DNA of 42,679 nt from the NCBI GenBank assembly GCA_030648615.1, contig JAUSHJ010000018.1:1-42679 (forward strand). Reading direction: 5' to 3'. The position numbers were made by a program, and so were the translations under genes. Below are positions 1,902-22,596 of this stretch, piece by piece. The stretch is from Microcaldota archaeon. Its GTDB lineage: Archaea; Micrarchaeota; Micrarchaeia; Anstonellales; Bilamarchaeaceae. The notes under the pieces were generated by a model. The model was not told where the DNA came from and made no database searches. It saw only the letters and a list, made by a program, of their open reading frames with translations. Every line of letters begins with the position of its first letter. Positions within the stretch are counted from its first letter, which is position 1.

Positions 1902-4900
1902 ATGCCAGTATTAGCACAAAAAAGCCTTGCAGGTCAAAAAGTAAAAGCATACTTGAAACTTGCCCAGGAGAGTGAAGGTGCGTGGGCATCTATAGTAGTA
2001 TTTCTTGGAGCTCTATTTCTTCTAGGTGCAATACCATTTTATCCTGTTTATTTAGTTCCAGTATTAGCTGCAATCTGTGGTATAGTAGCTTATAAGCATC
2101 CTGCATTCGGCATGCTTCTTTCATTTTTACTTGCATTTCCAGCAATTTCATATCAATCAGCAATATTTGGCTGGGTATTCGCATTAGTAATATCATTAGT
2201 TTTATTTGAGATGTTTGAACAATGGCTGGTCATTGCTTATTTGGAAATCCTGATAATGGCACCATTTAGTTTTGGTCAATTGCCATTCTTTGGCTGGTTC
2301 TCAATTCTAGGTATGGCCATAGGTGCAATGCGTTTCGGTTCCAAGAAAAGCGTTATCATATCTATTCCAGCTGTTTTTGCAATTCTGCTTTTATCATCTT
2401 TATGGGGTGTGCAAAATAGTGCATTTTTACCAGTTAATTTAGATATCTATAAACCACTGAATTCTGATCTTACTCTTTCAAAAAGTTCAGTAGATATTTT
2501 TAATCTTCCATCTATGCTTTTTTCTTCTCTTGGAAGTCTTGCTGATTTTAGTGTATTGAGTAAGTTGAACGATGCCATATCTAAAGTTGGCGGGAATATG
2601 CTTGCTATTTTATTTTCAGATTCCGGTTTAATTCAACTTGCTAGCTGGAGTATTCTTCTTTTTGCCATGGCATATATTTCTGGTTATTTCAAGGGTAAAC
2701 ACGCTCAGTTTAAATCGAGTCTTTTACTATTTCTAATTGTTCCAGTTTATTTCTTTATTTCTCAGATGATGAAAACACAATTCAGGTTTGAAATAATCTT
2801 TGCTATTGGGGTTACTTCAATTGTAATAGCTGTGCTGGAACAAAATGGTATAAAAATAAGTCATGAAACAGACGTTAAAAGAGCAGAAAATACTAAGAGT
2901 TTTGGTAAATTTGGTCTTCAGGATATGGGTGTAGGCGGAGATGAAAAAGGTTTGGGTGATGTCGGTGGTTATGAAGATGTCAAAACAGAACTTAAGGATT
3001 CTATATTGCTTCCTCTTGAAAATAAAGAGTTGTCCTATGCTTATGGAATAAAACCACCTGCTGGTATTCTGTTATTCGGTCCTCCTGGTACTGGTAAAAC
3101 TATGCTTATGCGTGCTCTTGCTAAAGAGTTGAAGTACGGATTTTACTATATAAAATCTTCTGATATTTTATCGCAATGGTACGGAGAATCGCTAACCGGA
3201 GATCAAAAGATTGTAATCTTAGACAAAGGAATCGTGAAAGAAGAACGAATCGATGATGTTGTAAATAACAAAATTAACGCAAAAGTTTTGTGTTTTAATG
3301 AAAATAATCAAGTTGTTTTTTCAGATATAAGCGGACATATTAAGCACAAATCTACTTCCTCAATTTTTGAAGTTCAAACTCGTACTGGAAGAAAAATCAA
3401 AGTAACAGATTATCATTCGTTATTTACTTATGATGGAAAAAGTATCACGAGCATTCCAACACATAATCTCGTAGCTGGAAAATCACATATTGTCGTTCCC
3501 AGTGCGATACACTTAGATAATCAAATGAACGAAAAAACATTCTTTGAGATGTATCATAATAATGGAAAAGATTCTCGTCTCAAGAAAATTGGCAGCGGAA
3601 TTTATCTAGATTTAGTTGAAGAAATCAAACAAGTTAAAGACGAAGAATTTGTATATGATATTTCTGTCGATCCGACCCAAAACTTCGTTGGTGGTGTTGG
3701 TGGAATATTTGCACATAACAGTGAAAAAAATATTTCTGAAATATTCCACATAGCAAGAAGCAAAGCACCATCAATACTATTTTTTGATGAAATTGACAGT
3801 ATTGGAAAAAAGAGAACCTCTTACAGTGCAGATGATGTCGGCCCTAGAGTATTAAGCGTTCTTTTACAGGAGATGGATGGTTTAAAATCAGGTAAAACCA
3901 TCATAGTTGTAGGTGCAACGAACGTTCCTCATCAATTAGATGCAGCATTGTTAAGACCTGGTAGAATCGACAAAATAATTTACATGCACTTGCCAGATAA
4001 GGAAGCAAGAAAAGCAATATTCGAAGTTAGTTGCAAAAAAGTTCCAATTTCTGAAGATGTAGATTTTGATAAATTAGCTTTGAAAACTGATCGTTTCAGC
4101 GGTGCAGATATAAAGAATATTGTTCAGGAAGCGATTAAAATTGCGGCAAGGGCAGCAGGTGTGAAGGGTGTCGTAGTTCCAGTAACCATGGATTATTTCC
4201 TCACAGTTCTCAAATCAATCAAACCCAGCACAGGTATAGCACAGTTAGAAGATTATGAAAGATTCCAGCAGGACTTTGAAAGAAGAGTTGGTGCAAAAGA
4301 AGAAGTCAAGGTAAAAGAAGATTTAGTCACATGGAAAGACGTTGCTGGTCTAGATGATGTTAGAGATGCTCTACTGGAAACAATTGAAATGCCACTACTG
4401 CATGAGAAGGAGATGAAAGAATTCAAGATTAAGCCAACAAAAGGTATTCTATTATTTGGTCCTCCAGGTACTGGTAAAACGCTAATTGTAAAGGCAGCTA
4501 CTAATGAGCTAAAAGCAACTTTCCAGACTATGAGTGGTGCTGAATTGCTTAAACAAGGTTATGCTCAGGCAGTCAATACTATAAAAGAAGTTTTCAATCG
4601 TGCTCGGGAAAATACTCCTGCAATTATATTCGTAGATGAAATAGAGACATTGACAGCTGCAGCAGCTCGTTCAGTAAGTGGAGAAATACTTGGTCAATTT
4701 TTAGTAGAGATGGACGGAATAAAAGAATTGAAAGGTGTCATAGTCATGGGTGCCACAAATAAACCTGGCTTATTAGATACAGCAATTCTTCGTCCTGGTC
4801 GTTTCGATAAAATATTTTACGTTCCTCCTCCGAATGAAAAGGGGAGATCAGATATGTTCAAGATTCATCTAGGTAATTTAGCAGAAGGTGTTGATGCTGC

Positions 4901-5120
4901 TGTATTGGCAAAAAAAACTGAAGGATTTACTGGTGCAGATATAGCTGGCATTTGCCAGGATGTAAAAATGTCTGCATTAAAGAACAGGATTGCAAGTAAA
5001 TCCTCTAAGATAACTACTGAAGACCTACTCAAGGTCATTTCAAGAAGAAGGCCATCAGTCACCAAGGATATGCTGGTGGAATTTGAAAACTTCATGGAAG
5101 AATATGGGGAGAGACGTTAA
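1902..5120 (+). CDS. Membrane-anchored double-AAA (Cdc48-like) ATPase with intein
   Basis: The protein has 1072 residues. Residues about 28-320 hold some nine hydrophobic helices. Two AAA modules of the Cdc48/VCP type follow. D1 has Walker A GPPGTGKT at 393-400, pore loop QWYGES, Walker B ending in D629-E630, and an arginine-finger segment ALLRPGRIDK. D2 has Walker A at 853-860, Walker B D912-E913 and AILRPGRFDK. A 177-residue intein interrupts D1 at 430-606. D2 has KQGYAQAVN where the pore loop and GES motif normally lie, so its substrate loop is atypical. By family it should unfold or extract proteins, here at the cytoplasmic membrane; no protease domain (FtsH HExxH) is present. The substrate is unknown. 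It starts 22 bases after a TATA box. Confidence 0.9.
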   Translation: MPVLAQKSLAGQKVKAYLKLAQESEGAWASIVVFLGALFLLGAIPFYPVYLVPVLAAICGIVAYKHPAFGMLLSFLLAFPAISYQSAIFGWVFALVISLVLFEMFEQWLVIAYLEILIMAPFSFGQLPFFGWFSILGMAIGAMRFGSKKSVIISIPAVFAILLLSSLWGVQNSAFLPVNLDIYKPLNSDLTLSKSSVDIFNLPSMLFSSLGSLADFSVLSKLNDAISKVGGNMLAILFSDSGLIQLASWSILLFAMAYISGYFKGKHAQFKSSLLLFLIVPVYFFISQMMKTQFRFEIIFAIGVTSIVIAVLEQNGIKISHETDVKRAENTKSFGKFGLQDMGVGGDEKGLGDVGGYEDVKTELKDSILLPLENKELSYAYGIKPPAGILLFGPPGTGKTMLMRALAKELKYGFYYIKSSDILSQWYGESLTGDQKIVILDKGIVKEERIDDVVNNKINAKVLCFNENNQVVFSDISGHIKHKSTSSIFEVQTRTGRKIKVTDYHSLFTYDGKSITSIPTHNLVAGKSHIVVPSAIHLDNQMNEKTFFEMYHNNGKDSRLKKIGSGIYLDLVEEIKQVKDEEFVYDISVDPTQNFVGGVGGIFAHNSEKNISEIFHIARSKAPSILFFDEIDSIGKKRTSYSADDVGPRVLSVLLQEMDGLKSGKTIIVVGATNVPHQLDAALLRPGRIDKIIYMHLPDKEARKAIFEVSCKKVPISEDVDFDKLALKTDRFSGADIKNIVQEAIKIAARAAGVKGVVVPVTMDYFLTVLKSIKPSTGIAQLEDYERFQQDFERRVGAKEEVKVKEDLVTWKDVAGLDDVRDALLETIEMPLLHEKEMKEFKIKPTKGILLFGPPGTGKTLIVKAATNELKATFQTMSGAELLKQGYAQAVNTIKEVFNRARENTPAIIFVDEIETLTAAAARSVSGEILGQFLVEMDGIKELKGVIVMGATNKPGLLDTAILRPGRFDKIFYVPPPNEKGRSDMFKIHLGNLAEGVDAAVLAKKTEGFTGADIAGICQDVKMSALKNRIASKSSKITTEDLLKVISRRRPSVTKDMLVEFENFMEEYGERR
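3189..3719 (+). other. Mini-intein coding segment in D1 of the AAA ATPase
   Basis: The segment encodes 177 residues (430-606). Block A begins SLTGDQKIVILDKG, with Ser as first residue. Block B is KVTDYHSLF with the TxxH pattern. Block F is FVYDISVDPTQNFVGG, and block G ends IFAHN followed by extein Ser607. Excision restores WYGE-SEKNISEIF, the normal Cdc48 sequence. No LAGLIDADG endonuclease domain is present between blocks B and F; only a linker of roughly 65 residues remains. The nucleophiles and the penultimate His are intact, so splicing is expected, but mobility through its own nuclease is not. Confidence 0.93.
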
Positions 5121-21171: not shown

Positions 21172-22212
21172 ATGCCTCCCATAAAGAAAAAATCAAGTCT
21201 TAGGTATCTAGTCTCTAGTTTCGAACAATCAACCTTACCTAAAATTGATGCTATCGACAGAAAAATTATTTATGAGCTAGAACAGAACTGCAGAAGAAGC
21301 CTGAATGAAATAGCAAAGAACGTAAGAGTAAGTAAACAGACACTTCACTATAGGATAGTGAGGCTGGTGAGTGAGAGGGTAATTACTCAATTCGTAGCTA
21401 TACTGGATGTAAGCAAACTTGGTTTGGTTAACCACGAAGTCTGGGTGCAACTGGAAGTTTTGCCAGAAGATAAAAAGAATCAGTTCATAGAGTTTCTAAT
21501 TGCTCATAATGCAACCAGGTGGGTTGCCAGTTGCGGCGGAAAAATTGATCTAGTATTTGCAATTGCTGCTGAGAATACAGTCAAGTTTAATATCATCTTA
21601 ACTGGCATTTTATCAAAATATCCTAACTATATAAAAAATTATTTTGTAACAATAACTCTAGAATACCTCACATATCCTCGTTCTCACATGATAAATGAAA
21701 GTGAAAATAGTTCTTATTCTTATATTGGCGGAGAACCGAAAAGAACTAATCTTGATGAAATTGAAATAGGTATCCTAAGTATCTTATCTAAAGATGCCAG
21801 AAAATCTACAGTGGAACTAGCAAAAGAGCTAGACATCACAGAAAATACCGTGAGGGCAAAGATAAAACTACTGGAAAAAGATAAAATAATCCAAACCTAC
21901 TCAGCAATAGTTCAGCCTTCGATGCTTGGACTGACGCATTTTGAAATACTTGCAACTACTTCTAATATGACTAAGGAAAAAGAGAAAGAGATTGAAACAT
22001 ATTGTTTGTTCAATCCATTTGTAACATATTATTTGAAATTAATAGGTAAATATGACATTGACGTGGCATTTGATGCAGTAAATCAGGAACATTTTCAGAA
22101 GATATTAGTGGAGTTCCGTTCAAGATTCTCAAGTATAATCAAGGATTTTGATTTTGTTTACATAACTTATGTTCATAAGTTCGATTATTTTGCTGGATTT
22201 GAAGTAGATTAA
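21172..22212 (+). CDS. Double Lrp/AsnC transcription regulator
   Basis: The protein has 346 residues and is two Lrp/AsnC units in one chain. Unit 1 has the HTH IDAIDRKIIYELEQNCRRSL with VRVSKQTLHYRI, followed by a RAM-like ligand domain to about residue 165. Unit 2 starts near residue 193 with LDEIEIGILSILSKDARKST and ITENTVRAKIKLLEKD, and has a second RAM-like domain. Lrp proteins normally dimerise through these domains to bind palindromic DNA and sense amino acids. The fusion makes an obligate pseudo-dimer with two different halves. The two HTHs may read an asymmetric site. The target genes are unknown. Confidence 0.88.
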   Translation: MPPIKKKSSLRYLVSSFEQSTLPKIDAIDRKIIYELEQNCRRSLNEIAKNVRVSKQTLHYRIVRLVSERVITQFVAILDVSKLGLVNHEVWVQLEVLPEDKKNQFIEFLIAHNATRWVASCGGKIDLVFAIAAENTVKFNIILTGILSKYPNYIKNYFVTITLEYLTYPRSHMINESENSSYSYIGGEPKRTNLDEIEIGILSILSKDARKSTVELAKELDITENTVRAKIKLLEKDKIIQTYSAIVQPSMLGLTHFEILATTSNMTKEKEKEIETYCLFNPFVTYYLKLIGKYDIDVAFDAVNQEHFQKILVEFRSRFSSIIKDFDFVYITYVHKFDYFAGFEVD

Positions 22213-22238
22213 AAAAAAGATAGCGGGCCCAGAGAGAT

Positions 22239-22318
22239 ATGTTCCCCATCACATGAGTTTTATCTCATGGTTTTTGGATAACCGTTTTGCCACAAGTTTG
22301 ACAAAAGTCAAAACGGTA
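22239..22318 (-). other. tRNA intron 3 (T loop)
   Basis: 80 nt. The central helix is GTTC/GAAC with bulges AAT and ATA, next to the GAGA/TCTC T stem. The inner stem is weak. The body has ACCGTTTTG/CAAAACGGT and CATGAG-ATAAAA-CTCATG hairpins. About 30 bases match intron 1. Confidence 0.85.
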
Positions 22319-22339
22319 TTGAACTCTCGGCGCATGGAT

Positions 22340-22390
22340 TTCTCGTTGAACGGTAATCCGTTCAAAGTTCGACATCAAATTTATGTCGAT
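22340..22390 (-). other. tRNA intron 2 (anticodon loop, canonical 37/38)
   Basis: 51 nt. It contains two perfect hairpins, TCGACAT/ATGTCGA and TTGAACGG-ATTA-CCGTTCAA. The bases AATC are repeated at both ends, so the exact cut is ambiguous by a few bases. The bulge-helix-bulge is relaxed (CTCT against CGAG, three of four pairs). Confidence 0.85.
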
Positions 22391-22411
22391 TAAGAGTCCA
22401 TTGCTCTACCA

Positions 22412-22487
22412 TTTCAGACCGTCTGGAAGTTGTACCTCATGGCTTTGGATAACTGTTTGCCATGAGTTTATGCTTATCCAAACGGTA
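22412..22487 (-). other. tRNA intron 1 (D loop)
   Basis: 76 nt. The bulge-helix-bulge fold is perfect: TCAG-CTT-ACCGT faces ACGGT-CTGA-AAT, with a 4-pair central helix and two 3-nt bulges. Cleavage after the second bulge base gives an exact tRNA. The body can form CTCATGGC/GCCATGAG or TTTGGATAA/TTATCCAAA. Confidence 0.88.
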
Positions 22488-22596
22488 AGCTGAGCTATGG
22501 GCCCAATAGCTACATTTCAGATTATACTGTATCAAGTAGAGATTAATCTAAGTATAGATATTTATTTAATGCTAAGTTTTAACCTTTTTTGTACCC

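Follow-up and report, generated by a model that had tools for sequence, protein, structure and literature searches.

Transfer RNA genes with three introns, together with large-scale intron transposition, have been described from the Thermoproteales (Sugahara 2008; Fujishima 2010, via PMC4033280, PMC4090602), and a first-pass annotation of the DNA analysed here took them to be known mainly from that group. This view is out of date: in the parts of these reports consulted, multi-intron tRNAs are also recorded from ARMAN-1/2 (PMC4033280) and from wetland Asgard archaea, in which 92-95% of tRNA genes are interrupted (PMC11291895). In a literature search that was thin on subscription papers, we found no account of multi-intron tRNAs in Micrarchaeota beyond ARMAN. 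As to the origin of archaeal tRNA introns, transposition has been inferred in the Thermoproteales, and the portions of the literature examined describe no free-standing donor element. Under the strict definition, a bulge-helix-bulge (BHB) motif has a central helix of 4 bp between two 3-nt bulges, and an outer helix beyond each bulge; relaxed BHB and BHL-type motifs are reported substrates of the ε2 EndA splicing endonuclease, which also has broad specificity (PMC6379350, PMC12397907).

The locus described here lies in a stretch of 42,679 nucleotides, analysed as a whole and referred to as the window, from a metagenome-assembled genome of 1.65 Mb in 76 contigs (89.75% complete; G000). The window encodes an AlaRS that shares 76% identity with its counterpart in a Candidatus Micrarchaeota MAG (nzgw32), and almost all of its near matches come from Micrarchaeota. 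A tRNA-Lys(CTT) gene of 281 nt runs from 22504 to 22224 on the minus strand, with 74 nt of exon (17+21+21+15 nt in four exons) and 207 nt of intron (76 nt in the D loop, 51 nt at 37/38 and 80 nt in the T loop). The first-pass annotation had placed such a gene at 22224-22504, with about 207 of 281 nt as intron; its coordinates were exact, and 76+51+80 gives the same intron total. The features are as follows, the exons being those of the blind spliced alignment described below.

22488..22504, minus strand: exon 1 (GGGCCCATAGCTCAGCT)
22412..22487, minus strand: intron 1, 76 nt, D loop, after position 17, with an HBh' motif
22493-22490 and 22417-22414, minus strand: TCAG and CTGA of the HBh' motif of intron 1, with h' ACCGT/ACGGT
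22433..22486, minus strand: ~57-nt hairpin element within intron 1 (51.5 bits to model R1)
22391..22411, minus strand: exon 2, with anticodon CTT (TGGTAGAGCAATGGACTCTTA)
22340..22390, minus strand: intron 2, 51 nt, canonical 37/38, with a relaxed BHL-like motif and two internal hairpins
22319..22339, minus strand: exon 3 (ATCCATGCGCCGAGAGTTCAA)
22239..22318, minus strand: intron 3, 80 nt, T loop 58/59, with an hBH motif
22324-22321 and 22244-22241, minus strand: GTTC and GAAC of the hBH motif of intron 3
22261..22317, minus strand: ~57-nt hairpin element within intron 3 (81.5 bits to model R1)
22224..22238, minus strand: exon 4 (ATCTCTCTGGGCCCG)
22211..22218, minus strand: T8 run, 5 nt past the tRNA 3' end, likely an archaeal terminator

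Once the three introns are removed the cloverleaf is complete. Given the spliced 74-mer, ARAGORN reports tRNA-Lys(ctt) with every stem paired, as the earlier description of an intact 74-nt cloverleaf had anticipated, and given the unspliced 281-nt gene it reports no tRNA. Annotation programs had been expected to miss it, and neither ARAGORN nor Rfam at the gathering threshold reports any tRNA in the whole window. The exons were also located blind, using a profile built on three tRNA-Lys sequences, all intronless and taken from relatives, run on both strands with introns allowed anywhere. The best path consists of exactly these four exons and scores 64.8. Apart from a value of 35.7 that overlaps part of this same gene, the runner-up among independent places in the window reaches 13.3, and over 60 Markov-shuffled windows the mean is 17.5 and the maximum 24.4. 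These scores, and the existence of orthologs, refute a chance assembly of tRNA-like pieces, to which we attach practically no credence.

Intronless Lys-CTT genes occur in G006, G008, G016, G017, G020, G030 and G037, among other relatives, and the spliced tRNA resembles them. The spliced aligner recovered D-, anticodon- and T-loop introns between intact exons in the tRNA-Lys(CTT) of G013, G022 and G007, each from another genus, and two introns in that of G001; intron columns in these alignments are ambiguous by a few nucleotides, and the claim is of the same regions, not of identical positions throughout. The placement of introns in the D, anticodon and T loops thus holds in orthologs of three other genera, and the D-loop site context GCTCAGCT^A...CTGAAA^TGG (^ marks the splice point) is conserved in several. 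Within G000, a DNA search and a search with the pattern GAGCRNNNGACTYTTA returned one Lys-CTT, the present gene, and one Lys-TTT (C63:31715), which has two introns, in the D and T loops. A second, uninterrupted copy of Lys-CTT, which the first-pass annotation had named as grounds for rejecting its reading, was found by neither search in this assembly; these copy counts come from searches and chosen stretches of a ~90% complete MAG, whose missing ~10% could hide an intact copy. The Lys-TTT gene gives some footing to the idea that the locus is a decayed pseudogene, leaving the AAG codons of lysine to tRNA-Lys(UUU). Yet no stem of the spliced tRNA is broken, the exons are conserved relative to the intronless orthologs, and other genera have interruptions in the same three regions between intact exons, so that decay is very improbable.

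Interrupted tRNAs are probably widespread in some of these genomes. With the Rfam tRNA model at E<=0.001, 10 tRNAs are detected in G000, 4 in G001, 5 in G007, 2 in G009, 5 in G013 and 3 in G022, against 36-45 in G006, G008, G010, G011, G016, G017, G020, G021 and G024 of the same family. We read the low counts as intron disruption, since many interrupted tRNAs were seen by eye, and incompleteness may explain part of them; standard tools can miss most tRNAs in such genomes. Synteny was uninformative for tRNA-Lys, in that the loci beside the Lrp orthologs in G007 and G009 hold none; that of G007 (C88, L046, ~710-848) contains an apparent initiator tRNA-Met with D-loop and T-loop introns.

The splice motifs of introns 1 and 3 are relaxed, each having a central helix of 4/4 bp and 3-nt bulges with one outer helix weak or absent. 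At intron 1 the motif reads TCAG-CT^T-ACCGT / ACGGT-CTGA-AA^T, with central helix TCAG/CTGA and bulges CT^T and AA^T; the intron helix ACCGT/ACGGT is present and the exon helix nearly absent, giving an HBh' form. The bulge-helix-bulge sequences claimed for this intron by the first-pass annotation are all present. At intron 3 (GTTC-AA^T / GAAC-AT^A) the central helix GTTC/GAAC, correctly foreseen at 58/59, is flanked by bulges AA^T and AT^A and an exon helix GAGA/TCTC, the intron helix (h') being weak (hBH). At intron 2, C-T-C is paired with G-A-G and the fourth pair fails (3/4 bp in the canonical register), there is no continuous h' helix, and hairpins form within the intron itself in a BHL-like manner; because AAT is repeated at both ends its bounds are ambiguous by 1-3 nt, with which 37/38 is consistent.

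G000 encodes an EndA frame of 420 aa (C32, ~53084-53575, minus strand), which aligns with residues 4-391 of 391 of the ARMAN-2 EndA 4fz2 (E 6e-136), the length of a three-unit protomer of ~390 aa. The two are identical at 199/383 residues (52%), a value low enough to indicate a distant lineage within the phylum, and the catalytic residues Y236/H251/K282 are kept, as are R275/W384 and, in the ASL, Y160/K161. Judged by its sequence, the splicing endonuclease is of the ε2 (ARMAN-2) type and not heteromeric (alpha-beta)2, so that the heteromeric enzyme predicted by the first-pass annotation gives way to a full-length match to 4fz2. Of the 27 genomes examined, most have EndA frames of ~380-490 aa (shorter in G009, G030 and G031). 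Since a frame of ~400 aa is common to intron-rich and intron-poor relatives, EndA type was rejected as the sole cause of intron richness; the enzyme permits introns, and does not itself explain their number. G000 also encodes a second PF01974 (EndA-like) protein of 166 aa, apart from the long EndA (C50:16775-17023, L026), and short PF01974 frames of roughly 140-210 aa recur beside the long EndA in many relatives; by eye, the catalytic histidine of the short protein is seemingly replaced.

The ligase RtcB is encoded in G000 as well. Its gene (C63:25373-23869; L297, L299) is broken between the codons for MPDGH and those for GYGFPIGG, and a cut of 32 nt by the BHB rule (CAT^A...AA^TCC) restores MPDGH-S-GYGFPIGG, which is uninterrupted in rtcB of G013, G011 and G018. 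The same interruption, with its stem conserved, is present in G001 (C51:19439-20532, L310), making two genera in all; should EndA and RtcB splice this intron, the gene for the ligase would depend on its own product. Upstream of rtcB in G000 are two ORFs with LAGLIDADG_3 matches (C63, L297 minus strand, ~397-1236). The rtcB frames of G006, G007, G012, G014, G029 and G032 (937-991 aa) carry a large in-frame insertion near residue 105, probably an intein in each. The window itself contains a mini-intein of ~177 aa (3189-3719; Pfam Intein_splicing E 6e-17) in an AAA (Cdc48-like) ATPase ORF (1902-5120).

Introns 1 and 3 align with a score of 58, against a maximum of 32 in 500 shuffles. Further copies in G000 were found by DNA search at 86-92% identity, and copies overall at 83-92% with E-values of 1e-8 to 1e-18. 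By eye, G000 copies were recognised in the T loops of tRNA-Pro(GGG), tRNA-Leu(TAG) and tRNA-Gln(CTG), among others. R1, a covariance model of seven copies whose E-values are rough, has 13 matches in G000 at E<=0.1, four of them antisense to other matches; the nine sense copies all fall within tRNA loops, as far as these can be read by eye. At E<=1e-5, R1 matches 13 of 245 genomes of the phylum, and all 13 belong to this family, across several genera of which the element occurs as an intron: in relatives it was seen by eye in D loops (e.g. L238, L241, L247, L248, L252), T loops (L222, L223, L266-L269) and anticodon loops (L256, L258). A known RNA family for the element was sought and rejected, there being no Rfam match at the curated gathering threshold; 12 element loci searched at E<=5 gave only tRNAs and weak below-threshold matches. 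On this evidence introns 1 and 3 are homologous and belong to one family of ~57-nt elements, a kinship, shared by introns in other tRNAs, that the first-pass annotation had not noticed. Similar hairpins might instead have been imposed on introns unrelated by descent by BHB motifs, EndA or another RNA-binding protein, and part of the similarity does lie in helices, BHB constraints being common to archaeal introns; but the likeness extends to unpaired stretches outside the splice motifs (e.g. TATCCAAAA), the unbiased DNA search returned copies of high identity, and the element is restricted to one taxonomic family, all of which makes convergence decidedly unlikely.

The element has a stem, S1 (NNCTTTTG / CAAAAGNN), with a T4-5/A4-5 core and outer pairs that vary on both sides; one such pair is CG in 33 cases, GC in 17, AU in 5 and UA in 3. 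As aligned, S1 strongly covaries, with counts biased by its being part of the model behind the alignment. A second helix, S2, lies outside the R1 model and pairs CTTATGGC, immediately upstream of the 3' strand of S1, with GCCATGAG, downstream of that strand. In S2, 77% of cells are paired (72% in shuffles) and 25 cells are two-sided (11.6 in shuffles), neither value being equalled in 1000 shuffles (0/1000), a test inflated by shared descent as the sequences are related; slid versions of the helix pair in 14-47% of cells. The middle of S2 is often open, and at two of its pairs the bases fail to pair in 22 and 30 sequences; the full helix is thus not universal. Together, S1 and S2 would probably close into an H-type pseudoknot in vivo. 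Several copies show by eye a third helix, TGACTT with AAGTCA in the tail, and other hairpins after S1 in L031 (G000:C32:15268), L208 (G000:C44:28275) and L216 (G020:C2:17443) are possible nested insertions.

The element also occurs outside tRNA genes. G020 is intron-poor, with 45 Rfam-detectable tRNAs and 14 element matches at E<=0.1, the lower-scoring of which (ACTTTTTTG type, 24-32 bits) are the family's least secure members. When these loci were read by eye, 1-4 nt separated five of the 14 from an end of a complete tRNA (these follow tRNA-Gly, -Thr, -Ala and -Ser, or precede tRNA-Leu on the other strand), three abutted a duplicated tRNA fragment (a tRNA-Lys 3' part and tRNA-Leu 5' parts), two were within ~100 nt of a tRNA and four had no clear tRNA neighbour. 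On a rough binomial estimate, given ~90 tRNA ends over 1.2 Mb, five of 14 copies would fall so close, at 4 nt or less, with a probability below 1e-10. In G003, three copies (L227, L229, L233) stand in sequence that could not be read as tRNA.

Copies that begin 1-4 nt past the 3' ends of tRNAs, and a T-rich stem, are also what a host signal of tRNA genes (a 3' trailer, terminator or processing structure), co-opted into introns and not mobile, might look like. Against this, some G020 copies are antisense near tRNA 5' ends or lie by duplicated tRNA fragments, others have no tRNA nearby (L040, L214, L216, and the three of G003), and most relatives lack the element; we consider a host signal unlikely, if less so than convergence. 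The distribution suggests a mobile intron family that targets tRNA genes, and the duplicated pieces of tRNA-Lys and tRNA-Leu next to certain G020 copies bear on the empty sites or target duplications by which a mobile element is recognised. We put forward tentatively, at a little under even odds, that pseudoknotted elements of ~57 nt insert preferentially at tRNA genes in this micrarchaeal family, and that insertions into loops survive as introns because ε2 EndA tolerates relaxed BHB motifs. Insertions beside a tRNA would be harmless, and those in D, anticodon and T loops would persist as introns; gene conversion between introns, or reverse splicing, may have been the copying route. If this is true, the elements would be an archaeal counterpart of the introner elements of eukaryotes, and would show a source of tRNA introns at work.

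Our overall reading, to which we assign a probability of about 0.92, is that the locus is a functional tRNA-Lys(CUU) gene whose three introns are cut by EndA and joined by RtcB, introns 1 and 3 deriving from one element family. Transcription from the A+T-rich DNA upstream would yield a single precursor of ~281 nt plus ends, terminating presumably at the T8 run. The folded precursor would be cut by the ε2-type EndA at six sites in the relaxed HBh', BHL-like and hBH motifs, and RtcB would join the four exons. Insertion, next to tRNA genes or within them, is the most likely way in which the elements spread in this taxonomic family.

Three-intron tRNAs are an already known kind of gene, found here in a new lineage; what is new is a structured repeat family in tRNA introns that also lies outside tRNA genes. 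Its presence beside intact tRNAs in a relative hints at a source of tRNA introns, and because the same element occupies tRNA loops in intron-rich genomes and lies by intact tRNAs in an intron-poor one, donor, target and tolerance become testable. As far as the consulted parts of the Thermoproteales reports go, the likeness lies in single tRNAs with as many as three introns, at canonical as well as non-canonical sites, and in similar introns shared across different tRNAs; unlike them, this is a DPANN archaeon with an epsilon2 EndA, and its shared introns have a covarying structured core with copies also outside tRNA genes. With wetland Asgard archaea it has in common a genome-wide richness in tRNA introns, many of them multiple and non-canonical, whereas the lineages are unrelated and the portion of that report consulted mentions no shared element (PMC11291895). 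ARMAN-1/2 (Micrarchaeum) belong to the same phylum and have the same endonuclease type and relaxed BHB/BHL motifs (PMC4033280, PMC6379350, PMC12397907), but the sections of these papers seen describe no element family, and here three introns fall in one tRNA-Lys. The disrupted tRNA-Thr of Caldiarchaeum likewise ties tRNA intron gain to mobile DNA and tRNA fragments; there, however, the integrating element is 1.8 kb long with a predicted recombinase (PMC3293823), whereas here it is non-coding and of only ~57 nt.
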